64,000 bases of DNA from Anaerocolumna sp. GTDB lineage: Bacteria; Bacillota; Clostridia; Lachnospirales; Lachnospiraceae. Position 1 is the stretch's first letter. Every line of letters starts with the position of its first letter. The notes under the pieces are model-generated. The model ran no database searches, was not told the DNA's origin, and saw only the letters and a list, made by a program, of their open reading frames with translations. Position numbers and translations under genes: made by a program. Location of the stretch: NCBI GenBank assembly GCA_029256725.1, contig JAQSXJ010000005.1:62001-126000 (forward strand), given 5' to 3'. Of the stretch, positions 46,258 through 61,698 are shown one piece after another.

Positions 46258-46315
46258 TTGACAAGATAAAAGTATATGATATAATCTACGTTATAGACTA
46301 CGGTCTATAACGTAG
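46258..46315 (+). promoter_or_regulatory. Promoter and perfect 13-bp-arm operator of the opp operon
   Basis: TTGACA (46258-46263), 16 bases and TATAAT (46280-46285) are directly followed by the palindrome CTACGTTATAGAC-TACG-GTCTATAACGTAG (46286-46315), perfect over 13 bp per arm. A bound repressor would cover the start site. Related dyads precede pepP, hypE, prdF and prdC. Confidence 0.8.
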
Positions 46316-46366
46316 TATAAGAGCTTGCTAATGATATTTTCAAAGAATACAAAACGAATCAGGACA

Positions 46367-46395
46367 AGGGCGTTCCTTTATGGGAGCGCTCTTTT
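46367..46395 (+). terminator. Terminator-like hairpin in the opp leader
   Basis: AGGGCGTTCC pairs with GGGAGCGCTCT (10 bp with two G-U), followed by TTTTG. It lies between the opp promoter and oppB, so it may act as an attenuator. Confidence 0.6.
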
Positions 46396-46457
46396 GTGTC
46401 TTTGAAAGTATTATTAAGGGATGAACAACCTGTTGGTAAACAGGGAGGGAGGAAAAT

Positions 46458-47384
46458 ATGATCAGGTACATAATAAAACGTTTTTTATTAGCCATTGCAG
46501 TTATTTTTCTGATTGCTACCTTTACGTTCTGGCTGTCCAGGGCGATACCGGGGGGACCTTTTACGAAAGACCGAGCTTTACCGCAGACGGTAATTGAGAA
46601 TCTGGAGAAGAGATACAATTTGGATATGCCGGTCTTTCAACAGTATATAAAATATATCGGAAACATAGCCAGACTTGATTTCGGCCTATCCTATTACTAC
46701 AAGACAGAAACCGTTAATGATATCATCAAAAGAACATTCCCGGTATCCTGTCTGTTAGGGGTTATGGCTATGATAACCGCAACAGGTCTTGGAATACCAC
46801 TTGGAGTTATTAGTGCCTTAAAGGAAAACAAATGGCAGGATAATATCCTGAAGATAATGACCACCATATTTATATCCGTACCCAGTTTTGTACTGGCAAG
46901 TCTGCTTATGTATTATATCGGATACAAGCTCGGAATTCTGCCGGTAGCTATGTGGGGAACCTGGAAGCATGCAGTCCTGCCGGTACTTGCCCTATCAGCT
47001 GCGCCGCTGGCTACGGTTACCAAATATATGCGATCCAGCATGCTGGAGGTTTTGGGAGCTGATTATATCAGAACAGCCAAAGCCAAAGGGGCAGGACATT
47101 TTACCGTTACTTATATTCATGCCTTAAGAAATGCCATACTTCCGGTACTGACCATACTGGGACCGATGTTTGCAGGTATTGTGTGCGGAAGTTTTGTGAT
47201 TGAGCAGATATTTGCAGTACCTGGTCTTGGACAGTCCTTTACGGAATCCATTTTCAACAGAGATTATTCCATGATTATGGGATTAACTATTTTTTATTCC
47301 ATTATACTGGTAACCGTTATTTTAATTATTGATATATTGTACACCCTGATTGACCCAAGAATTAAAGTTGCAAGAGGTAAATAA
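46458..47384 (+). CDS. oppB: Oligopeptide ABC transporter permease OppB/DppB type
   Basis: A 308-residue permease: an N-terminal membrane helix, a periplasmic-type loop (PGGPFTKDRALP, KRYNLDMPVFQQYIKYIG, quoted in parts), then five helices and the cytoplasmic loop GADYIRTAKAKGA (about residue 198). GGAGGGAGGAAAA is the ribosome site. First gene of the opp operon that feeds peptides to the proline pathway downstream. Confidence 0.93.
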   Translation: MIRYIIKRFLLAIAVIFLIATFTFWLSRAIPGGPFTKDRALPQTVIENLEKRYNLDMPVFQQYIKYIGNIARLDFGLSYYYKTETVNDIIKRTFPVSCLLGVMAMITATGLGIPLGVISALKENKWQDNILKIMTTIFISVPSFVLASLLMYYIGYKLGILPVAMWGTWKHAVLPVLALSAAPLATVTKYMRSSMLEVLGADYIRTAKAKGAGHFTVTYIHALRNAILPVLTILGPMFAGIVCGSFVIEQIFAVPGLGQSFTESIFNRDYSMIMGLTIFYSIILVTVILIIDILYTLIDPRIKVARGK

Positions 47385-47442
47385 GGACATTACGAGAAGA
47401 AATTTATGCCTGGGAGCAAAGTATTCAGGCAGAGAGAAAGGT

Positions 47443-48345
47443 ATGGTTATTGGAATGGATAATACACTGATATCATTTAAAAGGATACCCTGCGAAGAAA
47501 AACAGGCGGATGTCATCTTAAGACCGCCATCCACCTTTGCTAAGGATGCCTGGTACCGATTCAGCCGCAATAAGCTGGGACTTATAGGAGCTGCCTTCAT
47601 ACTGTTTATGGTTTTTCTTGCAGTTTTCGGACCTCAGCTCAGTAAATGGGATTATCAGTATCAGAATCTTTCAGAGGCTTTTCAGACACCGTCAAAAGAG
47701 CATTTAATGGGAACGGATAATCTGGGAAGGGATTTGATGATACGAATTATATATGGTGCCAGAATCTCTCTGATAGTCGGCTTTTCAGCAAGTATTATTT
47801 CTGTTGTTATCGGTGTTTTTTATGGTGCCATATCCGGTTATGCTGGAGGAATTACGGATACTGTTATGATGCGTTTTGTTGAAATTGTAGACTCAGTTCC
47901 TTCCACTCTCTATATCATATTGCTGGCACAGGTGGTGCAAAAGGGAGGAATTATAAATATTATTGCTGTTATTGGTTTTACCAGTTGGCTTGGGATGGCA
48001 AGGTTAGTTCGAGGAGAAGTGTTGAGTCTTAAATCCAGAGAGTTCGTACTTGCGGCAAAAGTCAGCAATATCAGTAATTTACGAATACTTACCAGACATT
48101 TGATACCAAATTGTCTGGGACCTATTATTGTATCTCTGACACTTAGCATCCCCAGTGCCATCTTTGTAGAAGCAGCACTTCGTTTTCTTGGAATTATGAG
48201 TCTTGCTACTCCCAGTTGGGGAAGCCTTGCATCAGATGGTATTAAAGTTATGAGAGCTTGTCCCCATATGATTATATTTCCTTCTATATTTATCAGCCTT
48301 ACCATGCTGGCATTTAATTTCTTGGGGGACTGGATCCTAAAATGA
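47443..48345 (+). CDS. oppC: Oligopeptide ABC transporter permease OppC/DppC type, 3' end frameshifted
   Basis: A permease of about 301 residues: residues 30-50 hold the WYRFSRNKLGLIG segment, then LMGTDNLGRDLMIRIIYGAR and the loop SREFVLAAKVSNIS. The family normally ends LGDGLRDALDPKMR or similar. Here the frame ends LGDWILK and stops at 48343, while LDPKMR followed by a stop is encoded in another frame (48330-48350). A deletion of about 13-14 bases near 48329 explains this. The start is uncertain: 47443 (GAGAAAGG adjacent) or 47455; upstream codons also stay open into oppB. Confidence 0.85.
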   Translation: MVIGMDNTLISFKRIPCEEKQADVILRPPSTFAKDAWYRFSRNKLGLIGAAFILFMVFLAVFGPQLSKWDYQYQNLSEAFQTPSKEHLMGTDNLGRDLMIRIIYGARISLIVGFSASIISVVIGVFYGAISGYAGGITDTVMMRFVEIVDSVPSTLYIILLAQVVQKGGIINIIAVIGFTSWLGMARLVRGEVLSLKSREFVLAAKVSNISNLRILTRHLIPNCLGPIIVSLTLSIPSAIFVEAALRFLGIMSLATPSWGSLASDGIKVMRACPHMIIFPSIFISLTMLAFNFLGDWILK

Positions 48346-48403
48346 GATAGTACAGAATGTGGGTTTTGCGAAATATTAAAAAGCATTATTCACACTCTGA
48401 GTT

Positions 48404-48445
48404 ATGGTAGTGTCACATCTGCAAGCAGATGCGGCATGCAATGGG
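48404..48445 (+). other. Possible degenerate third copy of the leader element
   Basis: GTGTCAC, a perfect ATCTGC/GCAGAT hairpin and GCATGCAATGGGAG echo the 3' part of the leader elements before blaI and oppD (GTGGCAGT, hairpin, ATATGCAATGGGTG). The match is partial and it has no coupled gene. Confidence 0.3.
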
Positions 48446-48516
48446 AGCTGGGGGCTATTGCATTTTAAACAATGTTGCTGTATTTGGACAGTACTGCAGG
48501 TTTGCTGAGGGGATAG

Positions 48517-48645
48517 ATGAAAATTAGAGTAAAAGAAAATTTATTATTGAAAGGGTGCCACATTAATATTCCTTCGTTTAAATTGTATTTGTGTGGCAGT
48601 ATCTCAGGCTGGCTTGAGATATGCAATAGGTGTAAATATGGATAA
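48517..48645 (+). CDS. Leader peptide with four cysteines, overlapping oppD
   Basis: A 42-codon ORF starts at ATG 48517, four bases after GAGGGG. It reads MKIRVKENLLLKGCH, CGSISGWLE, ICNRCKYG. It is homologous to the ORF before blaI (15200-15307): KEN, LKGCH, CGSI, ICN and CK are shared. Its stop lies inside oppD (8-base overlap). The 3' part forms the stem ATCTCAGG/CTTGAGAT; versus the other copy a G-C pair is replaced by T-A. Either a conserved peptide, an RNA element or both. Confidence 0.55.
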   Translation: MKIRVKENLLLKGCHINIPSFKLYLCGSISGWLEICNRCKYG

Positions 48646-49618
48646 ATTATTGGAAGTAAAGAACTTAAAAACAACCTTTAAAACTAAATTCGGAGATGTG
48701 CAGGCTGTAAATGATGTATCCTTTCAGCTGGATTCCGGTGAGATTATGGCAATTGTAGGTGAATCTGGTTCCGGTAAGAGTGTTACGGCTATGTCTATTA
48801 TGAAGCTGGTTGCGGCAGGAGGACGAATCGAAGAAGGAGAGATTAATTTTCAGGGTAAAGACTTAGCCAGATATAGTGATAAGGAAATGAAAAATATCAG
48901 AGGCGCTGAGATCAGCATGATATTTCAGGATCCCATGTCCTGTATCAATCCAGTTTACACCATTGGGTATCAGATGGATGAAGTTCTTCGTTTTCATCAT
49001 AAAGAACTGGATAAGCAGGCTAGAAAAGAAAGACTTATTGAAATGCTTCATAAAGTCGGAATGTCTAATCCTGAACACCGGTTAAAGCAATATCCCCATG
49101 AATTATCCGGTGGTATGAGACAGAGGATTATGATTGCAATGTCGTTACTGTGTAATCCGAAACTTCTTATTGCAGATGAACCTACCACTGCCTTGGATGT
49201 TACCATACAAGCACAGATAATGGACCTGATAAAGGAATTGAGTCAGGAATTTAAGACCTCAGTTATATTAATTACCCATGATTTGGGAGTGGTGGCCAGT
49301 GTTGCTCATAAGGTTATGGTTATGTATGCCGGTGAAGTAGTGGAATTGGCAGATATCAGAAATCTTTATTATAATCCGAAACACCCGTATACCTGGGGGC
49401 TATTAAAGGCACTGCCCAGGCTTAACATGCCAAAGAATTCTCTTATGCCAATACCGGGTTCTACACCGGATCTGCTGCTTAAAAGGCAGGGATGTCCTTT
49501 CTTTGACCGGTGCAGTTATGCAATGGAGTGCTGCCAAAACATGAATTCGCCTTTCTTTGAAGTTGAGCCGAACCACCTGGTTAAATGCTTTAGGTACCAT
49601 TCTGAATTCCGGGAGTAA
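48638..49618 (+). CDS. oppD: Oligopeptide ABC transporter ATP-binding protein OppD/DppD type
   Basis: A 326-residue ATPase. Walker A GESGSGKS (about residue 39), signature LSGGMRQR, Walker B LLIADEPTTALD, and the C-terminal oligopeptide-transporter domain with the Cys-rich CPFFDRCSYAMECC. The start is taken at ATG 48638, which overlaps the leader peptide; an in-frame GTG 45 bases upstream is within the leader hairpin. Its own ribosome site (AGGTG) is weak, so coupling to the leader is likely. Confidence 0.93.
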   Translation: MDKLLEVKNLKTTFKTKFGDVQAVNDVSFQLDSGEIMAIVGESGSGKSVTAMSIMKLVAAGGRIEEGEINFQGKDLARYSDKEMKNIRGAEISMIFQDPMSCINPVYTIGYQMDEVLRFHHKELDKQARKERLIEMLHKVGMSNPEHRLKQYPHELSGGMRQRIMIAMSLLCNPKLLIADEPTTALDVTIQAQIMDLIKELSQEFKTSVILITHDLGVVASVAHKVMVMYAGEVVELADIRNLYYNPKHPYTWGLLKALPRLNMPKNSLMPIPGSTPDLLLKRQGCPFFDRCSYAMECCQNMNSPFFEVEPNHLVKCFRYHSEFRE

Positions 49619-49819
49619 TATCAATTAAAAAGGAATAATTTTATTGATTTATATACAGATAAGTCCAAAATGAACACAGAAGGTGTACATTCCGGATTTT
49701 GTCAAAAATTTTTATTGCTGGAAGTTCAGTATCATGTCAGAAAGTGTGAAACAAAAATAATTTCAACTGTAAATATGTGCCTACAAAGTTTGCAGGCTGA
49801 GAAAGGCTTGGATATTAAT

Positions 49820-50791
49820 ATGACCCGTGAGAAAAAGGTATTGCTGGAAATAAAGAACTTAAAAAAGTATTTTCCCATTAAACAAAACCTGCTAAAGGCT
49901 GTCGATGATGTAAGTTTTTCTTTGTATGAAAATGAAACCTTAGGATTGGTAGGTGAGAGTGGTTGCGGAAAGACTACACTTGGAAGAACTGTCATGAAAC
50001 TCTATGAGCCTACTGAAGGGAAGATAATCTTTAACGGAACAGATATCGCAGGGCTTAAAAATAAGCAGCTGGCTCCCTATAGAAAAGATATGCATATGAT
50101 TTTTCAGGACCCCTATGCCTCCTTAAATCCCAGAATGAATGTCTCGGAGATTATTATGGAAGCCATGGAAAATGACAGAGACATTCCCAAAGCAGCCAGA
50201 AGAGATAGGGTATTGGAATTGTTAAAAATGGTGGGGTTAAACAGTGACCATGCTAATCGTTTTCCTCATGAATTCTCCGGAGGACAGAGACAAAGAGTAG
50301 GAATAGCCAGATCTCTGGCAGCTAACCCTAAATTTATTGTTTGTGATGAACCTATTTCTGCGCTGGATGTATCCATACAGGCACAAGTAGTGAATCTACT
50401 GAAAGAACTGCAGGAAGAACTTAACCTTACTTATTTGTTTATTGCCCATGATCTATCCATGGTTCAATATATTTCGGATCGCGTTGGTGTAATGTATCTT
50501 GGAAAGCTGGTGGAGTTAACCACCTCAGAAGAACTATATGAGAAACCCCTGCATCCCTATACCACCGCCTTAATTAGTACAATACCGTTTCCTGATCCGG
50601 AGATAGAGGAAAAGAAGGAGCGTATATTGTTAGAAGGTGAGATTCCGAGTCCCATTAACCCGCCAAGTGGTTGTGCATTTCGTACCAGATGTCGTAAGGT
50701 AACAGAAAAGTGTGCAATGGAATGCCCCTCTTTACAGGAGGTACAACCCGGTCATTATGTGGCATGCCATCAATATGGTACGGCAAAATAA
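49820..50791 (+). CDS. oppF: Oligopeptide ABC transporter ATP-binding protein OppF/DppF type
   Basis: A 323-residue ATPase with Walker A GESGCGKTTLGR, signature FSGGQRQR, Walker B FIVCDEPISALD and C-terminal CAFRTRCRKVTEKCAMECP. The open frame extends 150 bases upstream, but those residues are not family-like (CQKFLLLEVQYH), so translation from ATG 49820 is preferred; its ribosome site is weak. The 201-base gap to oppD is longer than usual inside an opp operon. Confidence 0.92.
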   Translation: MTREKKVLLEIKNLKKYFPIKQNLLKAVDDVSFSLYENETLGLVGESGCGKTTLGRTVMKLYEPTEGKIIFNGTDIAGLKNKQLAPYRKDMHMIFQDPYASLNPRMNVSEIIMEAMENDRDIPKAARRDRVLELLKMVGLNSDHANRFPHEFSGGQRQRVGIARSLAANPKFIVCDEPISALDVSIQAQVVNLLKELQEELNLTYLFIAHDLSMVQYISDRVGVMYLGKLVELTTSEELYEKPLHPYTTALISTIPFPDPEIEEKKERILLEGEIPSPINPPSGCAFRTRCRKVTEKCAMECPSLQEVQPGHYVACHQYGTAK

Positions 50792-50809
50792 CAGAAAGGA
50801 AACGAAATT

Positions 50810-52519
50810 ATGAAGAAACGAATGGCACTCATACTTGCAATGGTTATGGCTTTATCCCTGGCAGGCTGTTCCGGTAATTCAGGCAATGGGGGACAGAAAA
50901 CATCTGCTGTAAATGGTTCCCAAGGGGCTGATACAGGCTCTTCTTCCCAGGAAAACACCGGCTCAGGAGGAGAAAAAACGGTAGTATATAATGTTGGAAA
51001 TGAACCGGATTCCTATGATCCGGGGCTGAGTATTAATACTTCTACCGTTATACTATTCCAGCAGGGATATGATTTCTTATATCGTCTGGATTCCTCCGGA
51101 ACCTATCAGCCATCCCTGGCTGAGAGTTATGAGATGAGCGAGGACGGTCTGGAATACACCTTTCATTTGAGAGAAGGGCTTAAGTTCTCAGACGGCAGTG
51201 ATCTAACAGCAGAAGATGTGGCTTATTCCTGGACAAGAGTATTAGATCCAAACACTGCTTCGGAATATGCTTTTATCATGTATTATATAAAAGGTGCAGA
51301 AGCCTTTAACACCTGCTTAAATGAAGGCTCTGGCATCAGCTATGAGGATGCCAAGGCAGCCCTTGGAATAGAAGTTGTGGATCCCTTAACCGTAAAGATT
51401 ACCCTGGAAGCTCCTACGGCATATTTTCTTTCCTTGACTGGATTTATCACCTATGCAGTACTGGATAAAGAATTCCTGGAGAAAACAGCCACCTATGGTG
51501 CTGCGGTAGACTCTGTCTCCAGCAGCGGACCCTTTAAACTTACCGAGTGGAAAAAGGGAGAATACATGTTGTTTGAAAAGAATGAAAATTACTGGGATAA
51601 AGACAGTGTCACTCTTGATAAAATCAAAATGACCATGGTAGATGCCTCCTCAACGGAACTTACCCTATTTGATACCGGAGAAATCCAAGCGACTAACGTA
51701 GATATGTCAACAGCCGATATACTTGCCTATCAGGCAAAAGGAAATCTACAGCAGATGACCCAGTTAAATACCGGTTGGATAGCCTTTAATACTGTAAAAT
51801 CTCCTCTGGATGATGTTAGAGTCAGAAAAGCTTTGGTCTATGCACTTGATTTAAATGCAATCAATCAGAGTGTAATTGGTGGAGGTTCAATTGCAGCAGA
51901 TGGAATTATTCCTGGCAGTATGCCCTCACCCGAGGATCCTTCTAATCCTTTTCGAACAACTTCCTATATTAATACTGCCGGCGACATAGAAAAAGCCAAA
52001 ACGCTTCTGGCAGAAGCCGGCTACCCGGAAGGAAAAGGATTCCCTAGTTTAAAGCTGCAATACGGTGCCTCTAATGACTTAAACCGAATGATATCTGAAG
52101 CCATGTGTGCAATGTGGCAACAGAACCTTGGTATTACCATAACTCCCGATGGCATGGAAGCAAAAGCCAGAAACACTGCCAGACAGGAAGGGGATTTCGA
52201 TTTGTGCTTCCAAGGCTGGGGAGCAGATTATGCCGACCCCTACACCTTCTTAGAGTGCTTAAAGTCCTCCCACTATTACAACTATGGTAAATACAACAGT
52301 GCAGAGTTCGATTCCTATATGAATGCCGCAGCTACTTCCCTGTCAGCAACAGAAAGAACAGAAGCAATGACGAAGGCTGAGGCGTTGCTCTTTGAGGATA
52401 TGCCTATACTGTGCTACAATTTTGCTACGAAATGTTACCTTCAATCTGATAAACTGGTAAATGTAGTTAGAAATCCGACTGGGCCTGTGGATTTGAAGTG
52501 GGCTGATTTGATTGAGTAA
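50810..52519 (+). CDS. oppA: Oligopeptide-binding lipoprotein OppA type
   Basis: A 569-residue SBP family 5 lipoprotein. Signal peptide with lipobox LAGC (Cys about residue 20), a Ser/Gly-rich linker, then the binding domain: VYNVGNEPDSYDPG, SLAESYEMSEDGLEYTFHLR (residue 105 region), SGPFKLTEWKKGEYM, ARNTARQEGDFDLCFQGWG. AAAGGA precedes the ATG. The final gene of the opp operon; peptides bound are presumably proline- or hydroxyproline-containing, which is inference from context. Confidence 0.93.
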   Translation: MKKRMALILAMVMALSLAGCSGNSGNGGQKTSAVNGSQGADTGSSSQENTGSGGEKTVVYNVGNEPDSYDPGLSINTSTVILFQQGYDFLYRLDSSGTYQPSLAESYEMSEDGLEYTFHLREGLKFSDGSDLTAEDVAYSWTRVLDPNTASEYAFIMYYIKGAEAFNTCLNEGSGISYEDAKAALGIEVVDPLTVKITLEAPTAYFLSLTGFITYAVLDKEFLEKTATYGAAVDSVSSSGPFKLTEWKKGEYMLFEKNENYWDKDSVTLDKIKMTMVDASSTELTLFDTGEIQATNVDMSTADILAYQAKGNLQQMTQLNTGWIAFNTVKSPLDDVRVRKALVYALDLNAINQSVIGGGSIAADGIIPGSMPSPEDPSNPFRTTSYINTAGDIEKAKTLLAEAGYPEGKGFPSLKLQYGASNDLNRMISEAMCAMWQQNLGITITPDGMEAKARNTARQEGDFDLCFQGWGADYADPYTFLECLKSSHYYNYGKYNSAEFDSYMNAAATSLSATERTEAMTKAEALLFEDMPILCYNFATKCYLQSDKLVNVVRNPTGPVDLKWADLIE

Positions 52520-52560
52520 ATTGATTGAGATTGATGGATGAGTTTTAGTTTTTGGAAGTG

Positions 52561-52734: not shown

Positions 52735-52971
52735 TATTAATAAAGATATATACTTAAATATGTTTTACTTGAGGAAAGTAAGTTATATAATTATGAAATT
52801 GACAACATAACGGATAAACAGAACTCCAAATCATCGTTCGCAGCCACAACCTAACCCTTAGAACCCTTAGATAATTCATGACAACGTTTTCCAAACCTTT
52901 TGTGTTGTGATAAATTTAATTTTATGATACAATATTTATCAGTATACGATTGGACATGTATTGCCATATAT

Positions 52972-53520
52972 ATGTCAGAATGCGAGGAAATCATTCATAT
53001 AAAAGGTTATGAGGATACAACAGTAGAGGATATTATTGCAGCTGCCGGAACTTCTAAGGGAACCTTTTATTATTATTTTGAACGGAAAGATTCCTTACTG
53101 GATACGCTGGCTACCATTTTCGACCGCCGATATGAGCAGTTAGAGAAGGAAATGTCTACAGCTCTTAGCAGTTACGAAAAACTGCTGTTTATGAATTATG
53201 AGATGCATCAGTTTATTGAAAAAAATATTGATGTGGATTTACTTTCTTCTTTGTATTCCACGCAGCTTATCTCAAAGGGGCAGTCAAACTTACTGGATCA
53301 GAACAGAATTTATTATAAATTGGTAACTGATATTATTGAAGAAGGGCAGAAACTTGGACAGATTACGAAAGATAAATCTGTCAGGGAACTGACGAAATAT
53401 TATTCTCTTTGTGAACGTGCTTTAATATCTGACTGGTGCCTTAGTAAAGGGAATTATTCTTTGAGCCAGTACAGTAAGGACTTTTTACCTTTTATGCTGG
53501 AAGCAATTAAGGCAGAATAA
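52972..53520 (+). CDS. TetR/AcrR-family transcriptional regulator
   Basis: A 182-residue regulator. The HTH is clear (GYEDTTVEDIIAAAGTSKGT, then FYYYFERKDSLLDTLA), and the C-terminal helical ligand domain has normal length. The first helix is divergent and short (MSECEEIIHIK), so the N-terminus may be eroded or the start may lie further upstream; the frame is open to TTG 52900. A promoter-like TTGTGA-TACAAT pair near 52905-52933 argues for a start at 52972. It is the only regulator in the opp-pep-hyp-prd region and thus the best candidate for the shared dyad. Confidence 0.75.
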   Translation: MSECEEIIHIKGYEDTTVEDIIAAAGTSKGTFYYYFERKDSLLDTLATIFDRRYEQLEKEMSTALSSYEKLLFMNYEMHQFIEKNIDVDLLSSLYSTQLISKGQSNLLDQNRIYYKLVTDIIEEGQKLGQITKDKSVRELTKYYSLCERALISDWCLSKGNYSLSQYSKDFLPFMLEAIKAE

Positions 53521-53598
53521 GTAGATGCAAATAAATAGATGTAAATAAGTAAATACAAATAAGTAGTTGCATATAAGTAAATACAAATAAATAAAAAC
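53515..53598. repeat. Six-unit 14-bp tandem repeat
   Basis: Six adjacent copies of a 14-base unit close to AAATAAGTARATRC. The first copy includes the TetR stop codon. In-frame extension of TetR does not occur. Confidence 0.8.
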
Positions 53599-53707: not shown

Positions 53708-53715
53708 ATATGCAA

Positions 53716-54969
53716 TTATCTTTTACCCATTATAGCTTCTATTTCTTCCATACTGCGAGGGGTTAGGGCTGAGAGATTTTCGCAGCCGGTTTCGGTTATG
53801 AGACAATTGTCCTCCAATCTAAAGCCGATTCCCCATTCTTCACAATATATTCCGATGTCCACGCAGAATACCATACCGGGAGCGGTGAGCATTGTATCTG
53901 CCGGTGCTACCAAATCGTGAACATCGTAACCTACATGATGGGCGCCTCCATGCCACATATATTTACCCACATCTTCATATTTATCGCAAAGTCCTATTTC
54001 TTTTAATCGTTCATAGTTATATTTTCTGGCGGTTAAGTCTACCTCTGTCATTGGAATCCCTGGTTTTAAGATATCAAACATATAATTTGAGGTTTCATAA
54101 GCACATTGGTATAACAGCCTTTGTTTTTCATTAAATTTACCGTTACAGGGCCAGCCTCTGGAAACATCAGTTATCATATTGTCATAGCAGGCGCCTACAT
54201 CATTCAGTATCATATCCCCGTCACTAGCTCGTCCTTTGTAGGAGTAGTAGTGAATACAGAAATTGTTGTCACCGGCGGATATGATAGAGGGGAATCCGGG
54301 GACCAGAACGCCGTGTTGTGCCAGAGCATAATCGAATTCAGCTTTGTACTGGTATTCATACATACCGGGTTTTGAAGCTTTCATCATGGCTATGATGCCT
54401 TCTTTTGTAATCTGTTCAGCGGTTCTCATTGCCTCGATTTCACAGGATTTTTTGATGGTTCGCTGTTTTCTGATTTGAGGATTCAGATTCTTGATAGTGA
54501 CAAAGGGATAACGGCTTTTTATATAAGCAGCCAGTTTATAAGCTTCATTATCCGGTTCATCTTCTTTTAGCTTATCAAAATCCAGATATAATCTTTCTAA
54601 GCTGCCAGATTGGATTTTCTTATCCAGATAGGTGGTAAATTCCTGTATGTATTTAATCTGTGCAGCACCGGAGATATCCTGCGCTTGATTTTCCGTTAAG
54701 CGTCTGCCAGTCCAACGTTCCTCCAAAAGGTTTGGTGGCAGCAGATACAGTGCTTCTTCTACACTGTCAGCACCATATTTAAGAGCGGCCAGAATACTTT
54801 GTTCCTGATCAATGCCAGTCATATAGACGAAACTTCTGTCTGCAAAGAAAGGATAATATTCATCACCGGTTTTTCTTTTAGATTGACCGCTGAATAAAAT
54901 TGCAAGTGAACCGGGTTCCAGGCTGTTATAAAGTGACTGTCTGTTTTCCATGTGAAATTCTTTTATCAT
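53716..54969 (-). CDS. pepP: Xaa-Pro aminopeptidase (M24B)
   Basis: A 417-residue peptidase that removes an N-terminal residue preceding proline. Domain order is an N-terminal creatinase-like domain (AMP_N, with SLYNSLEPGSLAILFSG and DEYYPFFADRSFVYMTG) and a pita-bread catalytic domain. The dimetal ligands are visible: Asp pair in ILNDVGACYDNMITDVSRG, His in WHGGAHHVGYDVHD, Glu in FCVDIGIYCEEWG and RLEDNCLI. GGAAGGAG lies 6 bases before the ATG whose complement is 54967-54969; the frame is open 90 bases further but that part carries the promoter and operator. It should yield free proline from imported peptides. Confidence 0.92.
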   Translation of the reverse strand: MIKEFHMENRQSLYNSLEPGSLAILFSGQSKRKTGDEYYPFFADRSFVYMTGIDQEQSILAALKYGADSVEEALYLLPPNLLEERWTGRRLTENQAQDISGAAQIKYIQEFTTYLDKKIQSGSLERLYLDFDKLKEDEPDNEAYKLAAYIKSRYPFVTIKNLNPQIRKQRTIKKSCEIEAMRTAEQITKEGIIAMMKASKPGMYEYQYKAEFDYALAQHGVLVPGFPSIISAGDNNFCIHYYSYKGRASDGDMILNDVGACYDNMITDVSRGWPCNGKFNEKQRLLYQCAYETSNYMFDILKPGIPMTEVDLTARKYNYERLKEIGLCDKYEDVGKYMWHGGAHHVGYDVHDLVAPADTMLTAPGMVFCVDIGIYCEEWGIGFRLEDNCLITETGCENLSALTPRSMEEIEAIMGKR

Positions 54970-55025
54970 TGTGGCTCCTTCCGTGAAAACTAAATGATTG
55001 ACAAAAAATAAATGAGAATTTATAA

Positions 55026-55055
55026 TATAGACTACGGTATAGAACACAGTATAAT
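55026..55055 (-). promoter_or_regulatory. Regulon dyad upstream of pepP
   Basis: TATAGACTACGGTATAGAAC followed by ACAGTATAAT aligns base for base in length with the opp and hypE sites (TATAGAC, four bases, GT-TATA, then GTATAA). It lies 57 bases before the pepP start. The remainder of 54970-55394 holds nothing clear, apart from an AT-rich proC2 upstream region. Confidence 0.65.
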
Positions 55056-55394
55056 ACAACTGTTATATTTATGCAATATAGCAAATATTTTTTTGGTGGC
55101 AAGGCAGTCATATAGACCTGACATCACTTTTTTGTGAAATCACAGAAGTTTTTATTGTGGAAAGCTTTGGTTAATGATACTGTAACATTAATAATTTACA
55201 TAAAGGCGGCACACAGTGACCTTTGCTAAGCAGGAGAATTGTAAGTAAATAATAATTAAAAGATTAAAAGATTTTATATAAAAGGCAGAGCTTTTTAATT
55301 AATAGTTATATTCTAATGAAATAACCCTGTAACAACGGGTGAAATAGTATATTATTCTTAAGTACAAGGTATTAAAGTACAGAAAGGAAATGGT

Positions 55395-56189
55395 ATGAAA
55401 TTAGGATTTATCGGTTGCGGTAATATGGCAACAGCTATGATAGGAGGCATAACGGCTAATAAGATCTGCAATGCAGAAGATATCATAGCTTCGGATGCTT
55501 ATGCTCCGGCACTGGAAAAAGCCAGGGAACAATTACAGATTCGGGTCAGCAGTGATAACAAAACCGTAGTAAGTGAAGCAGATATCCTGTTTTTGGCGGT
55601 AAAACCTCAGTATTATGAAACTGTAATTAAGGAAATCAAGGATTACATACAGGATAACCAGATTATTGTAACAATAGCACCTGGTAAAACTCTTGCCTGG
55701 CTGTCAGAGACCTTTGGAAAATCATTGAAAGTTGTTCGCTGTATGCCCAATACCCCTGCCTTGGTATGTGAAGGTATAACCGGAGTCTGCAGCAATGACC
55801 TGGTAACGGAGGAAGACCTGGAGCTGGTGTGCAGGATGCTAAGAGGTTTTGGCAAGGTTGAAGTATTGACAGAGAAACTGATGGATGTTGTAGTATCCGT
55901 AAGCGGAAGTTCACCGGCTTATGTATTTATGTTTATTGAAGCAATGGCAGATGCGGCTGTAGCCGATGGAATGCCAAGAGCACAGGCATATCAGTTTGCT
56001 GCACAGGCAGTGTATGGAAGTGCCAAAATGGTTCTTGAAACCGGCAAACATCCAGGTGAATTAAAAGATATGGTATGCTCTCCTGGCGGTACAACCATAG
56101 AGGCTGTCAGAGTACTGGAGCAAAAAGGTTTTCGCAGTGCCGTAATGGAAGCGATGAAAGCCTGTACAACAAAATCGAAAGGATTATAG
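55395..56189 (+). CDS. proC: Pyrroline-5-carboxylate reductase (copy 2)
   Basis: A 264-residue P5C reductase with LGFIGCGNMATAMIGG (residues 2-17), AVKPQYY, VRCMPNTPALVCEGI, and VCSPGGTTIEAVRVLE. It is a clear paralog of the copy at 12841-13641. HypD-type dehydratases yield P5C, and P5C reductase genes are often next to them; here hypE and hypD follow after ppnP. A catabolic role in converting hydroxyproline to proline is therefore inferred. AAAGGA precedes the ATG. Confidence 0.93.
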   Translation: MKLGFIGCGNMATAMIGGITANKICNAEDIIASDAYAPALEKAREQLQIRVSSDNKTVVSEADILFLAVKPQYYETVIKEIKDYIQDNQIIVTIAPGKTLAWLSETFGKSLKVVRCMPNTPALVCEGITGVCSNDLVTEEDLELVCRMLRGFGKVEVLTEKLMDVVVSVSGSSPAYVFMFIEAMADAAVADGMPRAQAYQFAAQAVYGSAKMVLETGKHPGELKDMVCSPGGTTIEAVRVLEQKGFRSAVMEAMKACTTKSKGL

Positions 56190-56192
56190 AAT

Positions 56193-56513
56193 ATGAAATT
56201 TGAAAATGTAGATGTAGTAAAAGAGGCAAATGTATACTTTGACGGAAAGGTTACCAGCCGGACAATTTATTTTAAGAACGGCGAAAGAAAAACTCTGGGA
56301 TTTATGCTGGCAGGTGACTACGAATTTGGTACCGGTGCAGAGGAACTGATGGAAGTCTTGGGAGGAGAAATGGATATCTGCCTGCCAGGAGAAACTTCCT
56401 ACAGCACTTATAAAACAGGGGATAGTTTTATAGTTCCGGCTGACTCCAAATTTAAAATTATTGTGAAAACCTACGGTGATTACTGTTGTTCTTACAAAGA
56501 AATTTCTAAATAG
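56193..56513 (+). CDS. ppnP: Pyrimidine/purine nucleoside phosphorylase PpnP-like cupin
   Basis: A 106-residue cupin of the DUF1255 (YaiE/PpnP) family, known to phosphorolyse many nucleosides. [48 protein letters not shown] and the length fit the family. It follows proC2 by three bases, with AAAGGAT in the proC tail. Its link to the amino acid pathway is unclear. A terminator follows. Confidence 0.88.
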
Positions 56514-56554
56514 TATCATATTGCTTTATTCATTAAGTAGAATAAGAAAAATCC

Positions 56555-56603
56555 AATCAAGGTATTTTTGCCGGAAACGGCAGAAGATGCCTTGATTTTT
56601 TTA
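56555..56603 (+). terminator. Terminator after ppnP
   Basis: AATCAAGG and CCTTGATT form the outer stem and GCCG/CGGC with a GAAA tetraloop the inner one, followed by seven T. Confidence 0.85.
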
Positions 56604-56617
56604 GGTATAAATAAATA

Positions 56618-56680
56618 TTGACAAATGCATATAACAAAGTTAAAATTTTTATAGACCAAAGTATAAACCAAGGTATAAAA
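56618..56680 (+). promoter_or_regulatory. Promoter and regulon dyad of hypE-hypD
   Basis: TTGACA (56618-56623), 17 bases and TAAAAT (56641-56646) form a promoter. Right after it TATAGACCAAAGTATAAACC (56650-56669) followed by AAGGTATAA aligns with the opp and pepP sites. It also contains a 12-base direct repeat ACCAARGTATAA. Confidence 0.7.
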
Positions 56681-56691
56681 GGAGCAATAAA

Positions 56692-57606
56692 GTGAAGAAG
56701 CCTTTCATTACAGATATTCAGAAATATTCTCTTCATGACGGAGAGGGAATTCGAACTACGGTATTTTTCAAAGGTTGTCCGTTGTCTTGTGTCTGGTGCC
56801 ATAATCCTGAAACAAAACAGTATCAGAAGCAGTTAATGTTTATGGCTGACAGCTGCACCGGCTGCGGCTGTTGTTTGAAAGCATGCCCCAAGAAGGCCAT
56901 ATCGATAAAAGAAGGAATCGCTGTAACAGATAAGGGCACTTGTAATGCATGCGGTATTTGCAGGGATTACTGTTTGCAAAATATCAGGGAATTATCCGGT
57001 AAATATTATACCGTCCAGGAATTGGTGAAGGAGATAGAGAAGGATAAGATCTTCTATGAAAATTCCCAGGGAGGAGTTACTCTTTCCGGCGGAGAAGTAT
57101 TAACACAGGAGCTTGTTTTTCTGGAGGAACTGCTTTGTACGCTTCATGGAAAAGGGTACCGCATTAATATTGATACATCCGGCTATGCACCTTATCAGGT
57201 ATTTGAAAGAATCCTGCCATATGTGCATACCTTTCTATATGATTTAAAATTGCTGGATCCAGAAGTACATAAGAAATATACAGGAACAGACAATTTATTA
57301 ATAAAAGAGAATCTTAAAAAACTCAGTGCTGAGAAAGCGTCTATCTGGATACGCATTCCGGTTATAGGCGGGGTGAATGCCTCTGATTACAGCTTAAGAC
57401 AGATAGCTGAGTTTCTGGCAGCAGAGAATATATCTTTTCAGCAGATTAATCTGCTGCCCTATCATAATACAGGCAGCAGTAAATACAAAAGATTGCAGAA
57501 AAATTATGAAGGGGAAGAATTTTTTACTCCTTCTGAAGAAGAAATGAAGAGCTATAAGAGTATTTTTAAACAATATGGTTTTCAGAAGGTAATAATTGGA
57601 GGATAA
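56692..57606 (+). CDS. hypE: Glycyl radical enzyme activase for 4-hydroxyproline dehydratase
   Basis: A 304-residue radical SAM protein that installs the glycyl radical on its partner. The SAM cluster motif is CPLSCVWC (about residue 29), followed by two ferredoxin-like clusters (CTGCGCCLKACP and CNACGICRDYC) as in activases of dehydratase-type GREs. GGVTLSGGEVLTQ is the SAM-binding part. It starts with GTG 56692 behind AAAGGAG. The GRE gene follows by 21 bases. Confidence 0.9.
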   Translation: MKKPFITDIQKYSLHDGEGIRTTVFFKGCPLSCVWCHNPETKQYQKQLMFMADSCTGCGCCLKACPKKAISIKEGIAVTDKGTCNACGICRDYCLQNIRELSGKYYTVQELVKEIEKDKIFYENSQGGVTLSGGEVLTQELVFLEELLCTLHGKGYRINIDTSGYAPYQVFERILPYVHTFLYDLKLLDPEVHKKYTGTDNLLIKENLKKLSAEKASIWIRIPVIGGVNASDYSLRQIAEFLAAENISFQQINLLPYHNTGSSKYKRLQKNYEGEEFFTPSEEEMKSYKSIFKQYGFQKVIIGG

Positions 57607-57627
57607 GTAAAAGGGAGGTTAAAGCTT

Positions 57628-59988
57628 ATGAATGACAGGATTTATAATTTGAGGAAAAAAAGTCTGGATACACCTGCTCACATAGACATGGAGAGGGCTA
57701 AGCTTTTCACAGAATGTTATAAGCTGTATGAAGGCAGTGTTTCAATACCGGAACTAAGAGCCTTAGCCCTTAAGCATTACTTTGCGAATAAGACTCTCTA
57801 TATCGGACAAGGTGAATTGATAGTAGGTGAGAAAGGGGACGGACCTCAGGCTTCGCCAACTTTCCCGGAATTATGCTGTCATACTGTACAGGACCTTAAG
57901 GTTATGAATGATCGTGATCTGATAAGCTTTCAGGTGAAGGAAGAAGCTTATGAATTACAGGAGAAGGTTATGATACCTTATTGGGAGACACGCTCAATCC
58001 GGCATAAAATTCTTGATCATATGACAGCGGAATGGAAATTAGCCTATAACAGTGGTATTTTCACGGAATTTATGGAACAGAGGGGACCCGGACATACTGT
58101 TGGCTCAGAAAATATTTATAACAAAGGATTTCTTGATTATAAAGAAGAGATAGAAAAGGCAAGGAAAGAGCTGGATTATTTAAAGGATAAGGAAGCTCTT
58201 GAGAAAGAACACCAGTTAAAAGCCATGGATATAGCCTGTGATGCAATTATTATTTTGGGGCAAAGGTATCACGAGTATGCTCTTAAACTTGCAGGAGAAG
58301 AGAAAAATAATGATCGCAGGCGCGAACTGCTAATGATAGCAGAAAACTGCAAGGTAGTACCTGCCCATAAGCCAGAAACTTATTGGCAGGCTATCCAGAT
58401 GTACTGGTTCGTACATCTGGGCGTGACTTCAGAAATCAATCCCTGGGATGCTTACAGTCCTGGCAGGCTGGATCAGCATCTGATCAGATTCTATAAAAAA
58501 GATATGGAAGAGAATAGCATAAATCGAGAGTTCGCCAAAGAATTACTGGAATGCCTTTGGGTAAAGTTCAATAATCAGCCAGCACCGCCAAAGGTTGGTA
58601 TAACCTTGAAGGAAAGCAGTACTTATACGGATTTTGCCAACATTAACACAGGTGGTATCACACCGGAGGGACAGGATGGAGTGAATGAGGTAAGTTATCT
58701 GATTTTGGAATGTATGGATGAAATGAAACTGCTGCAGCCAAGTTCTAATGTACAAATCAGTAAGAAAACACCCAGAGACTTCTTGTTAAAAGCCTGTGAA
58801 ATATCCAGAAAAGGCTGGGGACAGCCGGCCTTTTACAATACAGAGGCAATCGTACAGGAACTGTTAAATGCCGGAAAGACCATAACTGATGCCAGAAAAG
58901 GAGGCACCAGCGGTTGTGTGGAGACCGGTGCCTTCGGTAATGAAGCTTATATCCTGACGGGTTATTTTAACCTGCCTAAGATCTTAGAACTTACCCTATA
59001 TAACGGTTATGACCACATGAGTGGGCAGCAGGTTGGCCTTAAGACCGGTGAAACTGTGGATTATCATACTTATGAGGAGTTATTTGAAGCTTATAAAAAG
59101 CAGGTAACATATTTCCTTACTATTAAATTACGCGGAAATAATATAATTGAAAAGATATACGCGGATTCTATGCCGGTACCTTTTCTGTCAGTAGTCACAA
59201 ATGACTGCATTTTAAAAGGAAAGGACTATAATGCCGGCGGAGCCAGATATAATACCAACTATATACAGGGAGTGGGTATCGGTACTATTACAGATTCCCT
59301 GGCCGCAGTTAAATACAATGTCTTTGATGAGAAGAAATTTACCATGGAAGAGTTATTGCAGGCTATGAAGGATAACTTTACAGGACATGAGAGAATCCTG
59401 AATCTGGTTCGCAACCGTACGCCGAAATATGGTAATGACAACGATTACGCTGATGCCATAATGCAGGAGGTATTTCATTTCTATTGCAGCAGCGTTACAG
59501 GAAGACCTAACGTAAAAGGTGGCTTCTACGGTGTAAATATGCTCCCCACTACCTGTCATGTTTATTTTGGTGATGTTATGATAGCCAGTCCCAATGGAAG
59601 ACTGAGTCATAAGCCTGTTTCTGAAGGGATTTCCCCAGAAAAAGGAGCTGATATATTAGGTCCGACAGCAGTGCTTAAATCCGCCTCCAAAATGGATCAC
59701 TTAAGGACCGGAGGAACCTTGTTGAATCAGAAATTTACTTCCTCTGTGGTTGCGGGAGAGACGGGACTTGAGCAAATGGCGAACCTGGTCAGGGCTTATT
59801 TCGATATGGATGGGCATCATATCCAGTTTAATGTAATTGATAGGAAGACACTAATAAAAGCGCAGGAAAATCCCCAGGAGTATAAGGATTTAATAGTAAG
59901 AGTCGCAGGTTACAGCGATCATTTCAGAAACTTAAGCAAGGCACTGCAGGATGAGATAATTGAGAGGACAGAACAGGCCTTTCACTGA
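57628..59988 (+). CDS. hypD: Glycyl radical enzyme, trans-4-hydroxy-L-proline dehydratase type
   Basis: A 786-residue glycyl radical enzyme. The thiyl Cys is Cys430 with Glu432 in TSGCVETGAFG, and the glycyl radical is Gly761 in VRVAGYSDHF. Length, the GCVE motif and its spacing to the radical Gly fit HypD, which dehydrates hydroxyproline to P5C. The neighbouring P5C reductase, proline racemase and PrdA strengthen the call. Other GRE dehydratases (glycerol, propanediol, choline lyase) share GCVE, but usually have GCVEP and other neighbours. Active only anaerobically in the cytoplasm. Confidence 0.85.
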   Translation: MNDRIYNLRKKSLDTPAHIDMERAKLFTECYKLYEGSVSIPELRALALKHYFANKTLYIGQGELIVGEKGDGPQASPTFPELCCHTVQDLKVMNDRDLISFQVKEEAYELQEKVMIPYWETRSIRHKILDHMTAEWKLAYNSGIFTEFMEQRGPGHTVGSENIYNKGFLDYKEEIEKARKELDYLKDKEALEKEHQLKAMDIACDAIIILGQRYHEYALKLAGEEKNNDRRRELLMIAENCKVVPAHKPETYWQAIQMYWFVHLGVTSEINPWDAYSPGRLDQHLIRFYKKDMEENSINREFAKELLECLWVKFNNQPAPPKVGITLKESSTYTDFANINTGGITPEGQDGVNEVSYLILECMDEMKLLQPSSNVQISKKTPRDFLLKACEISRKGWGQPAFYNTEAIVQELLNAGKTITDARKGGTSGCVETGAFGNEAYILTGYFNLPKILELTLYNGYDHMSGQQVGLKTGETVDYHTYEELFEAYKKQVTYFLTIKLRGNNIIEKIYADSMPVPFLSVVTNDCILKGKDYNAGGARYNTNYIQGVGIGTITDSLAAVKYNVFDEKKFTMEELLQAMKDNFTGHERILNLVRNRTPKYGNDNDYADAIMQEVFHFYCSSVTGRPNVKGGFYGVNMLPTTCHVYFGDVMIASPNGRLSHKPVSEGISPEKGADILGPTAVLKSASKMDHLRTGGTLLNQKFTSSVVAGETGLEQMANLVRAYFDMDGHHIQFNVIDRKTLIKAQENPQEYKDLIVRVAGYSDHFRNLSKALQDEIIERTEQAFH

Positions 59989-60013
59989 CTATAAAATAAT
60001 TGGAAAAAAGTAC

Positions 60014-60043
60014 TTGACAAAATACTAGAACGTAGTCTAGAAT
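60014..60043 (+). promoter_or_regulatory. Promoter with embedded regulon dyad upstream of prdF
   Basis: TTGACA (60014-60019), 18 bases and TAGAAT (60038-60043). The spacer holds CTAGAACGTAGTCTAG (60025-60040), a near-palindrome matching the opp dyad core in reverse orientation. Repressor binding would exclude polymerase. Confidence 0.65.
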
Positions 60044-60109
60044 TAAGTACAAGAAATACAGCAGTGAAATTTGCAGCAATTAATAATATTAATACAAGAG
60101 TTATGACAA

Positions 60110-60141
60110 AGGTGTCGCATTAATTTGTGACACCCTTTTTT
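60110..60141 (+). terminator. Strong terminator between hypD/prdF promoter and prdF
   Basis: GGTGTCGCA and TGTGACACC form a 9-bp stem (one G-U) with a 6-base loop, followed by CTTTTTTT. It ends hypD transcripts, but also lies about 65 bases downstream of the promoter at 60014, so it may be an attenuator or end a small RNA. Confidence 0.85.
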
Positions 60142-60239
60142 TACGCAATAAAATAATAGTTTCTATAGCATTAAAAGTCCTTCGGCGAGGGCAAGGCTGC
60201 GGAGTTAGAGTTTATATTACATGTACATTTGCACTAGTA

Positions 60240-60390
60240 TGTGTTTGAAAAATGCTTGTGCAAGGCGTGGCACTCCACTTTGGGGAGACAAGGTGCGATT
60301 TCGGGGACGTTGTGGTGCTGCATTTCCAAAATAACAACAAAGGATACTACAAAATAGGGGGGCGAACGGTGCAAGGATTATTCGAACACA
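60240..60390. repeat. 151-bp inverted-repeat element, dispersed family copy 2
   Basis: TGTGTTTGAAAAATGCTTGT (60240-60259) and its imperfect complement GTGCAAGGATTATTCGAACA (60369-60388) bound the element. Internal CTCCACTTTG and GGGGACGT blocks relate it to 45421-45490. It makes up most of the 327 bases between the terminator and prdF. Confidence 0.55.
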
Positions 60391-60468
60391 CTCTAACGAA
60401 GTATCAACATAAGTCAAGTTTCTTTATTTTGGTGATTAGTAATCTTACGGAATGAAAAGGGAGGTTGT

Positions 60469-61548
60469 ATGGAATTAAAGCCTGAGCAGAAATGCAATTA
60501 TAAGGTTTTTGAAACAATCGATTCACATACTATGGGGGAACCTACAAGGATTATTGTGGAAGGATTTCCGAAACTAATGGGAAGTACCATGATAGAGCGC
60601 AAGAAATATCTGGAGGATAATTATGACCACTACCGAAAAGCGCTGATGTTAGAACCCAGAGGCCATAAGGATATGTTTGGAGCATTATTAACAGAACCTT
60701 TAAGCAGTGAGGCTGATTTAGGAGTCATTTTTATGGATACCGGCGGTTATCTGAATATGTGCGGACATGGAAGCATTGGTTCGTCTACTGTAGCAGTAGA
60801 AACAGGATTGGTCCAGGTAACAGAACCCTATACCAAGGTTGTACTGGAAGCACCGGCAGGTCTTATATATGCAAGAGTGAAGGTGGAAAAGGGTAAGGCA
60901 ATTGAAGCCAGTATATTGAATGTACCTTCCTTTTTATATAGAGAGGATGTTGAGATAGAGGTTGATGACTTTGGGAAAATAACATTGGATATTTCCTTTG
61001 GGGGAAGCTTCTTTGCATTGATTAATGCTGAAAAAATAGGCTTATCAATTGATACTGCAAATATAGACCGCATTACTGAACTTGGTATGAAGATTATTAA
61101 GAAACTCAATGCTACCATTCGTGTCAAACACCCTACCCTTGATATTACAACTGTGGATCTTGCGGAGTTTTACTGCAGTCCAACCAACAGTGCTGCCCAT
61201 AAGAAGAATGTAGTGATATTCGGAGACAGTCAGGTAGACCGTTCACCTTGCGGAACGGGAACCAGTGCCAAACTAGCTTTGATGCATGCCAGAGGTGAGC
61301 TGGCAGAAGGAGAAGAATTTGTGTATGAGAGCATAACCGGCTCCATGTTCAAAGGAATAATAACCGGTGAAACCTTGGTCGGTGAATATAAAGCTGTGAT
61401 ACCTCAGATTACCGGCAGCGCTTATATAACAGGATTTAACAGGTGGGTTATAGATGATGAGGATCCTTTAAAGAATGGTTTCATATTCGGCAAACGCGAT
61501 GAACTGCAGGCGAATCTTGAATCAACACAAGTATCAGCTAACATCTGA
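60469..61548 (+). CDS. prdF: Proline racemase
   Basis: A 359-residue enzyme that interconverts L- and D-proline with a two-cysteine mechanism. Cys98 in NMCGHGSIG and Cys261 in DRSPCGTGTSAKLALMHARG are the catalytic pair. A hydroxyproline epimerase has the same fold, so residue-level specificity is not certain, but the neighbouring prdC and prdA argue for proline racemase (PrdF). GGGAGG is the ribosome site. Confidence 0.9.
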   Translation: MELKPEQKCNYKVFETIDSHTMGEPTRIIVEGFPKLMGSTMIERKKYLEDNYDHYRKALMLEPRGHKDMFGALLTEPLSSEADLGVIFMDTGGYLNMCGHGSIGSSTVAVETGLVQVTEPYTKVVLEAPAGLIYARVKVEKGKAIEASILNVPSFLYREDVEIEVDDFGKITLDISFGGSFFALINAEKIGLSIDTANIDRITELGMKIIKKLNATIRVKHPTLDITTVDLAEFYCSPTNSAAHKKNVVIFGDSQVDRSPCGTGTSAKLALMHARGELAEGEEFVYESITGSMFKGIITGETLVGEYKAVIPQITGSAYITGFNRWVIDDEDPLKNGFIFGKRDELQANLESTQVSANI

Positions 61549-61675
61549 TACTTAGAAGAAGTGCTATAACAAATAGTGTAAGACTGTAAACCAAACACTG
61601 TACAGGGTTAATTATATAAGTACTTTGTTTGCCGGAAGAAATTAATATTACATAAAAGCATTAAATTTTTTTAAA

Positions 61676-61698
61676 GTAAACCGACCGTAGTTTAATAC
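61676..61698 (+). promoter_or_regulatory. Weak regulon dyad upstream of prdC
   Basis: AAACCGACCGTAGTTTAAT matches the opp dyad core in reverse complement (AAACTACGGTC), 46-68 bases before prdC. No clear -35/-10 pair is assigned. Confidence 0.45.

Follow-up and report, generated by a model that had tools for sequence, protein, structure and literature searches.

Does a single kind of DNA site, repeated in front of peptide transport, peptidase and proline-catabolism genes, mark a repressor-controlled regulon? The question arises in a 64,000-nucleotide stretch of an Anaerocolumna sp. genome (Lachnospiraceae; GenBank assembly GCA_029256725.1, contig JAQSXJ010000005.1, positions 62,001 to 126,000 of the forward strand), hereafter the window, whose host genome is 5.53 Mb. 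A preliminary description made from the letters of the window had pointed to five copies of a dyad, before opp (oligopeptide transport), pepP (Xaa-Pro aminopeptidase), hypE-hypD (hydroxyproline dehydratase activase and dehydratase), prdF (proline racemase family) and prdC (proline reductase electron transfer), and had proposed a repressor-controlled regulon leading from peptide to 5-aminovalerate. Two TetR-type proteins are encoded close by, R1 within the window and R2 just beyond its end. From sequence comparison we consider it very likely that a family of TetR-type repressors governing the fermentation of peptides, hydroxyproline and proline uses these sites as its operators. Loci from this and related genomes are cited by our own numbers (L001 and so on).

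A shared two-palindrome motif

All five copies are present, at 46286-46315, 55026-55055, 56650-56679, 60025-60040 and, weakly, at about 61681-61694, and the motif shared by the regions before opp, pepP/proC, hypE, prdF and prdC is genuine. The opp dyad has the exact 13-bp arms that had been described, around TACG and directly 3' of TATAAT. The operator consensus consists of two 14-bp palindromes, TAGACTATAGTCTA, placed 12 bp apart with the TA between them common to both, giving a 28-bp dyad overall. The element GTATAA, previously counted as a third feature of the first three sites, does occur in each of them; it is not a separate element, however: these bases close the second of the two palindromes. 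When neighbours scoring at least 4 bits were counted around strong units (loci L161-L220, all except L174 outside the training of that matrix), they lay 12 bp away at 19 of 48 anchors and 24 bp away at 8 of 48; a 7-bp neighbour, found at 5 of 48 anchors, is probably palindrome self-overlap, and other distances gave 0-2. Three units are found in L167, L181, L199 and L201, and the third is only partial at opp, where a 28-mer at 46281 reaches 14.6 bits yet scores at most 4.5 bits as a single unit.

The 14-base core alone, with up to three mismatches, gave 7 matches against 3.5 expected, which is not significant; because the core by itself is at chance level, a two-unit model was used in place of a core search. 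A symmetrised 28-bp matrix (hyp-type) was trained on 23 sites, namely 20 sites upstream of hypE and the three strong window sites at opp, pepP and hypE. It found 31 places of at least 13 bits in 1.5 Mb (the window pepP site recurring among them as L001 and opp counted twice), compared with 0 in one Markov-shuffled copy, and these places fall before hypE, pepP, opp, prdF and the prdC of L003. A 14-bp unit matrix trained on the 20 outside sites only scored all five window sites, from 17.1 bits at opp to 9.6 bits at prdC (Table 1). In the 5.53-Mb genome, a strict pattern with no more than one mismatch occurs at 3 places, every one within the window, and with 3 mismatches its matches are no commoner than those of a reversed-pattern control.

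Three window operators (opp, pepP and hypE) are of the hyp type. The prdF operator belongs to a second, prd type: its site scores 25.5 bits with the prd-type matrix, in whose training set it is included, versus 13.1 with the hyp-type matrix, and a prd-type pattern with up to 2 mismatches has its single match in the 5.53-Mb genome at prdF. The prdC site had been graded weak, and its 2.7 and 3.4 bits agree. Units between prdF and prdC are present in both Anaerocolumna relatives, with 14.6 bits in L003 and three units 12 bp apart in L002; a search of these two genomes at up to one mismatch gave no opp site.

The hypE site accompanies a TetR family

For a survey of hypD loci we first scanned 1500 bp upstream of hypD with a hand-made matrix built on eight sites, including three in the window. 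The scores were sharply bimodal, and the high scorers lay immediately ahead of hypE, approximately 970-1090 bp 5' of hypD. We counted 76 of 80 loci, omitting L077, L078, L080 and L081, in which hypD is cut or incomplete (L078 does encode a related TetR). The site stands before hypE in 20 of the 76, and a TetR related to R1, counted by tblastn, is encoded in 18 of these 20 site-bearing loci compared with 2 of the 56 site-free loci (Fisher 2.7e-13, uncorrected for relatedness; L016 is almost a duplicate of L023). Within the site-negative set, L043 and L054 are too short upstream to reveal a site, and L029, L049, L065 and L066 extend less than 600 bp behind hypD. Recurrence of the sites in relatives, together with this tracking of the hypE site by the TetR family (18/20 vs 2/56), supports the proposed peptide-to-5-aminovalerate regulon.

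The two site-bearing loci that lack a TetR in the locus, L012 and L053, each come from a genome that encodes a relative elsewhere. In L002 and L003 the relative in the locus is R2, with R1 immediately outside (L175, L176). All 18 site-positive genomes searched as a whole have a TetR match of at least 49% identity; the search left out site-positive L023 and L030, both of which have a TetR in the locus. Among six site-negative genomes searched, L014 and L028 yielded none and the other four yielded members of 34-48% identity, fusions included, so identity by itself is no clean separator of the groups. Across the family, 61 of 397 sampled genomes hold a TetR family member at an E value of 1e-20 or better.

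Paralogous TetRs and a variant operator

Paralogues of these TetRs adjoin prdF, hypED or putP and have variant operators; near other members of the family, the spacer between prdF and prdC holds a variant that is TAGACCGCGTTCTAGTATGAAGTTCA-like. We built the prd-type matrix from eight sites (the window, L002, L003, L170, L171, L172 and two of L177) and applied it to 40 TetR loci outside its training (361.5 kb), in which kinship to the training loci was retained. It gave 23 matches of at least 19 bits and 0 in ten shuffles, and column-permuted matrices on ten test loci gave a mean of 0.03 matches versus 7 for the real matrix. Nineteen of the matches fall in 17 of the 21 prdF/prdC loci, where the misses are L196 (17.2 bits), L204 (cut off by the contig end) and two fusion loci, L211 and L212. 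The remaining matches, in 4 of the 19 other test loci, comprise two between hypE and a divergent TetR (L184, L218), one before a putP-like gene (L216) and one upstream of a TetR (L193); those in L193 and L208 fall inside a frame retained by the open-reading-frame picker. Nine transporters beside TetRs of a third branch score 485-514 bits with the PutP model, all just below its cut-off of 515.5.

In a tree from which L213 was left out (its 498-amino-acid frame joins a TetR to unrelated sequence), the hypD-linked TetRs, R1 included, form one group (support 94/78), and a second (100/99) unites R2, the Anaerocolumna R2s, L181_10 and a Terrisporobacter protein; the remaining prd-linked TetRs form a third group, and four fusions form another (100/96).

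Operator type follows the recognition helix of the TetR, in part on training sites. Where a hypE locus encodes an FYY TetR (FYYYF in 13 cases and FYYHF in one), its site is hyp-type in 14 of 14, and all 21 prdF/prdC sites with an FYH TetR are prd-type, the 14 hypE sites and 4 of the 21 prd sites being training sites of their own matrices. Outside training, the hypE sites with a divergent FYH TetR (L184, L218) are prd-type in 2 of 2; L193 is likewise prd-type (1/1), and five putP sites score between the two types. Six hypE loci stand outside the count of 14, namely L010, L012, L053 and L057, for which no TetR is listed, and L002 and L003, which are paired with R2; all six are hyp-type.

These data bear on the possibility that the TetR simply happens to be encoded nearby and that the sites are bound by a different regulator, of the MerR, GntR, LysR or response-regulator type. 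Direct 12-bp repeats would fit other regulator families too, and in L174 (Emergencia) two open reading frames that look GntR-type by eye lie beside hypE. The TetR family, however, accompanies the site across genomes and in hyp, prd and some putP contexts, and the operator type follows its recognition helix; we therefore give a different regulator only a small chance.

Promoters and the proposed mechanism

The opp and hypE operators lie immediately 3' of the -10 box. The prdF site had been placed between -35 and -10, which is correct, except that the operator extends over the -10 box as well. Of the 20 site-bearing loci, 19 (all but L008) have TTGAC within 50 bp 5' of the hypE operator. Promoter-like matches across the region number 57 versus 51.7 in shuffles, which is no enrichment; we consequently place weight only on the position and quality of the few site-linked promoters (Table 1). 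The site at 55026-55055 had been assigned to pepP. The gene to its left is indeed pepP, but the site lies in a divergent spacer in which the best promoter faces proC; because it sits between divergent genes with a perfect promoter toward proC, proC is probably a target alongside pepP. That rightward 12/12 promoter is kept in both Anaerocolumna relatives (L175, L176), with pepP on the left in all three genomes and, on the right, proC in the window, an M24-peptidase-like gene in L175 and an OppA-like gene in L176. The palindromic sites overlap the promoters of their putative targets, in the manner of TetR-family operators.

On the simplest view, two or more TetR dimers would lie side by side on each 28-bp operator, and occupancy after or over the -10 box would block RNA polymerase. 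Release of the TetR would then be brought about by a compound of the pathway, be it proline, hydroxyproline, pyrroline-5-carboxylate or a proline peptide, and, as release would be triggered by substrate, the opp, pepP/proC, hypED and prd genes would switch on together. Because the prdF operator is a variant, R1 and R2 may divide the window sites among themselves: R1, perhaps damaged, is a candidate for the hyp-type sites, and R2 for prdF/prdC or perhaps for all of them.

Separately, a terminator-like hairpin with a T run lies at 60111-60141, between the prdF operator and prdF, with counterparts seen by eye in the prdF leaders of L002 and L003, and a second terminator-like hairpin lies in the opp leader at 46366-46393. 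These leader hairpins suggest a possible second, RNA-level control of prdF and opp.

Could the dyads themselves work in RNA, as 5' leader hairpins of an attenuator or riboswitch? The perfect 13-bp arms at opp are partly paired in the folded leader, and the terminator-like hairpins lie downstream in the opp and prdF leaders. The prdF site, on the other hand, would be mostly untranscribed from its promoter, as it covers the -10 box and sequence 5' of it; the arms are imperfect at the other sites, whereas sequence and spacing are conserved; and an Rfam scan of 45900-64000 returned no match at the gathering score. We regard an RNA role in place of DNA operators as very improbable. Least credible of all is that the prd genes are under sigma54-PrdR control as in Clostridioides with the sites incidental, as the window's genome yields just five weak partial Sigma54_activat matches (22-34.5 bits, far below the scores of full sigma54 enhancer-binding proteins) and sigma-70 promoters matching 11-12 of 12 consensus positions stand at the opp, proC, hypE and prdF sites. 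The precedent for it is that PrdR activates the C. difficile prd operon and that sigma54 control of prd genes was predicted in nine Clostridiales species (PMC6615313, in excerpt).

Several observations weigh against TetR operators as the common explanation. Matches of at least 19 bits are missing from 19 of the 40 prd-type test loci (four prdF/prdC loci and fifteen others), and of the eight putP loci in that set, five have a site of at least 14 bits and three (L195, L197, L200) have none. In the window, the prdC site is weak, and helix 1 of R1 is abnormal, with a branch of 0.47 versus 0.06 and 0.10 in the Anaerocolumna orthologues. No site of at least 11 bits occurs beside R2 (L088) or R1 (L089, L099) in the stretches scanned, so there is no sign of simple autoregulation; a single 10.5-bit unit lies at 52705, upstream of R1. 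Lastly, the response to hydroxyproline differs between species: hypD rose in C. hylemonae, whereas in C. scindens the prd genes responded and hypD did not (PMC9044972, in excerpt), a result that would bear on the sites only if those strains carry them.

R1 and R2

The preliminary description had pointed to the TetR at 52972-53520 (R1) as a protein whose binding should be tried. Its family does accompany hypE sites, but helix 1 of R1 is degenerate and an intact paralogue, R2, lies outside the window. With Pfam TetR_N (cut-off 24), R2 scores 62.5 bits and R1 46.9 bits, R1 matching only from profile position 9. The R1 recognition helix, SKGTFYYYF, is intact, whereas the protein reads SECEEII where intact relatives have AAWxLF or near variants; DNA homology of R1 to L175 and L176 begins at about 52990 and fades 5' of there, window positions 52900-53000 being degenerate. 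AlphaFold2 models are all-helical with a C-terminal ligand domain, with a mean predicted local distance difference test score (pLDDT) of 82.6 for R1, which is still helical at the SECEEII stretch, and 88.8 for the R2 of L002, which matches TetR structures in the PDB. The sequence of R2 is normal and intact. R1 may still be functional with its odd helix 1; alternatively it may be in decay, in which case the opp, pepP/proC and hypE sites would now be read by R2 or by no protein at all.

Racemase-TetR fusions

Proline racemases of the PrdF type with a C-terminal TetR-like domain are encoded at L009:16960-18618 and L048:6132-7733 (second copy L180:4038-5639) and in L211 and L212. The L048 fusion matches Pfam Pro_racemase and TetR_N, as read from the L180 copy, and the L009 fusion was recognised by alignment. 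The fused domains lack the SKGxFYxYF recognition helix. Both site-free hypD loci with a TetR relative, L009 and L048, owe it to such a fusion, and no site stands before their hypE. Absence of both the recognition helix and the hypE site fits a DNA-binding role of the intact TetRs and a proline-related ligand; the fusions suggest that the TetR ligand is proline itself or a closely related compound. More tentatively, one proline-sensing TetR family may have been duplicated and re-tuned for each step (FYY at hypED, FYH at prdF and putP) and in some lineages fused to PrdF with loss of the recognition helix, its ligand domain then sensing proline as an allosteric or scaffolding part instead of controlling genes; we find this scenario possible and rather doubtful.

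Secondary targets in relatives

Eight further matches with 1-3 mismatches were chosen by eye from a 24-genome search. Seven of the eight precede peptide or proline genes, and L168 does not. They concern aminopeptidase P (L164, L165, with a POT transporter gene upstream), a POT transporter (L161), an M24 peptidase (L166), an operon of a TauE-like membrane protein and an Opp-type transporter (L162, L163) and putP (L167), with genes identified by Pfam in L163, L165, L166 and L167 and by likeness in the rest. As 3-mismatch matches in this search were overall at control level, each secondary target is weaker evidence than hypE. The conservation in related genomes that the preliminary description had looked to is uneven, clear at hypE (20/76), pepP (L175, L176) and prdF/prdC (17/21) and weaker at Opp-type and POT transporters, peptidases and putP.

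Gene content and neighbouring features

The earlier gene assignments (oppBCDFA, TetR, pepP, proC, hypE, hypD, prdF and prdC) are borne out by profile matches (Table 1). The closest HypD relative found is an Anaerocolumna protein, at 84%. The pepP frame as listed reaches 55059; visual inspection for a start codon following a ribosome site puts the beginning of the gene near 54969. With the NCBIfam proline racemase model, prdF scores 530.3 bits, under the cut-off of 556.

Table 1. Genes, promoters and predicted operators (positions in the window unless a locus is given).
Feature	Position	Strand	Basis or score
oppB, oppC, oppD, oppF, oppA; oligopeptide ABC transporter	46458..52519	+	profile matches
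TetR R1	52900..53520	+	Pfam TetR_N; grouped with hypD-linked Lachnospiraceae TetRs
pepP, Xaa-Pro aminopeptidase	53716..55059 (open frame)	-	profile matches
proC, pyrroline-5-carboxylate reductase	55395..56189	+	TIGR00112, above cut-off
hypE, hydroxyproline dehydratase activase	56692..57606	+	NF043069, 427.7 bits (cut-off 425)
hypD, trans-4-hydroxy-L-proline dehydratase	57628..59988	+	NF043068, 1481.6 bits (cut-off 1100)
prdF, proline racemase family	60469..61548	+	Pfam Pro_racemase
prdC, electron-transfer protein of proline reductase	61735..63039	+	TIGR04481, above cut-off
TetR R2, intact	L098:7187-7768		after prdB, 2.2 kb beyond window end
opp promoter, sigma-70, TTGACA-16-TATAAT	46258..46285	+	12/12 consensus
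promoter toward proC, TTGACA-17-TATAAT	54998..55026	+	12/12 consensus
hypED promoter, TTGACA-17-TAAAAT	56618..56646	+	11/12 consensus
prdF promoter, TTGACA-18-TAGAAT	60014..60043	+	11/12 consensus
opp operator (predicted)	46282..46320	.	28-bp hyp-type model 26.3 bits; units 46294 (17.1 bits), 46306 (6.6), partial 46282
pepP/proC operator (predicted)	55027..55054	.	28-bp hyp-type model 24.7 bits; two units 15.2 + 8.4 bits, 12 bp apart
hypE operator (predicted)	56651..56678	.	28-bp hyp-type model 28.0 bits; two units 15.9 + 13.0 bits, 12 bp apart
prdF operator, prd-type variant (predicted)	60025..60052	.	28-bp hyp-type model 13.1 bits; units 10.2 + 8.0 bits
prdC weak site, single unit CCGACCGTAGTTTA	61681..61694	.	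9.6 bits as unit; 2.7 and 3.4 bits as 28-mer

Past the window end, the prd cluster (L098) continues with a PrdA-like protein, a 170-amino-acid protein, PrdB, R2, a class-III aminotransferase and an iron-type alcohol-dehydrogenase-like protein; the names PrdA, PrdB and alcohol dehydrogenase were given by eye, and a Pfam search of the PrdA-like protein was without a match. The aminotransferase and alcohol-dehydrogenase-like genes lie 3' of R2 at L098:8074-10450, and the pair could convert 5-aminovalerate to 5-hydroxyvalerate; a hyp-type matrix scan before these genes found no site of at least 11 bits. Genes resembling thiamine salvage, by eye, adjoin R1 in one Anaerocolumna (L176:2771-5830) and an R2-like TetR in Terrisporobacter (L173:5289-8843). 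A selenocysteine tRNA gene lies between prdF and prdC in 10 of 10 such loci scanned (L169, L170, L171, L172, L177, L186, L190, L198, L201, L205), and a scan of L098, from the window's genome, found none.

Comparison with known systems

Gut anaerobes ferment amino acids by reducing hydroxyproline and proline, and this activity enters into the nutrient contest with Clostridioides difficile (PMC9044972, in excerpt). Our analysis offers a concrete candidate regulator and operator for this metabolism in Lachnospiraceae, and the sites suggest which genes belong to the pathway, among them peptide transporters, Xaa-Pro peptidases and PutP. It also provides a natural case of paralogous repressors with a nearly identical recognition helix and two operator variants.

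A TetR repressor regulon is a known kind of system, and the present regulon, operator and regulators appear to be undescribed as far as our literature search reaches. Among the matches listed from the openly accessible literature (subscription papers and preprints lie outside it), none concerned a TetR regulator of proline or hydroxyproline fermentation, and a word search of the HypD paper PMC7077986 found neither TetR nor regulator. FadR of Bacillus subtilis and relatives, itself of the TetR family, is the characterised group most similar in sequence and one of the best matches in fold: R1 scores 53.3 bits with NCBIfam FadR, PDB 3whb matches the profile of the present repressor family at E 1.4e-19, and FadR/YvdT structures were matched by the R2 model in Foldseek. 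The R1 score, however, is far under the NF053878 cut-off of 200, and the predicted targets here are proline and hydroxyproline genes, whereas those of FadR are fatty-acid genes.

In layout, the 28-bp two-palindrome sites agree with operators of the QacR class, which have about 22-32 bp and room for two dimers; the QacR/CprB-type operators of 22-32 bp bind two dimers (PMC4150764, in excerpt). They differ in that the palindromes here are 12 bp apart and extendable to a third unit, and the dimer number is predicted from sequence. Hydroxyproline use in Streptomyces coelicolor is controlled by HypR (PMC6608401, in excerpt), which is a GntR-like protein from a different phylum. In the excerpted literature, known prd control is by PrdR with sigma54 (PMC6615313, PMC12285225, PMC6867894), and PrdR resembles the present system in controlling prdABDEF and prdC (PMC6615313, in excerpt); it is, however, an enhancer-binding activator that acts at a sigma54 promoter through a site of TGT and ACA with a 10-12-bp spacer. 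Our best reading is that tandem-dimer TetR repressors would act here where other Clostridiales use sigma54-PrdR.

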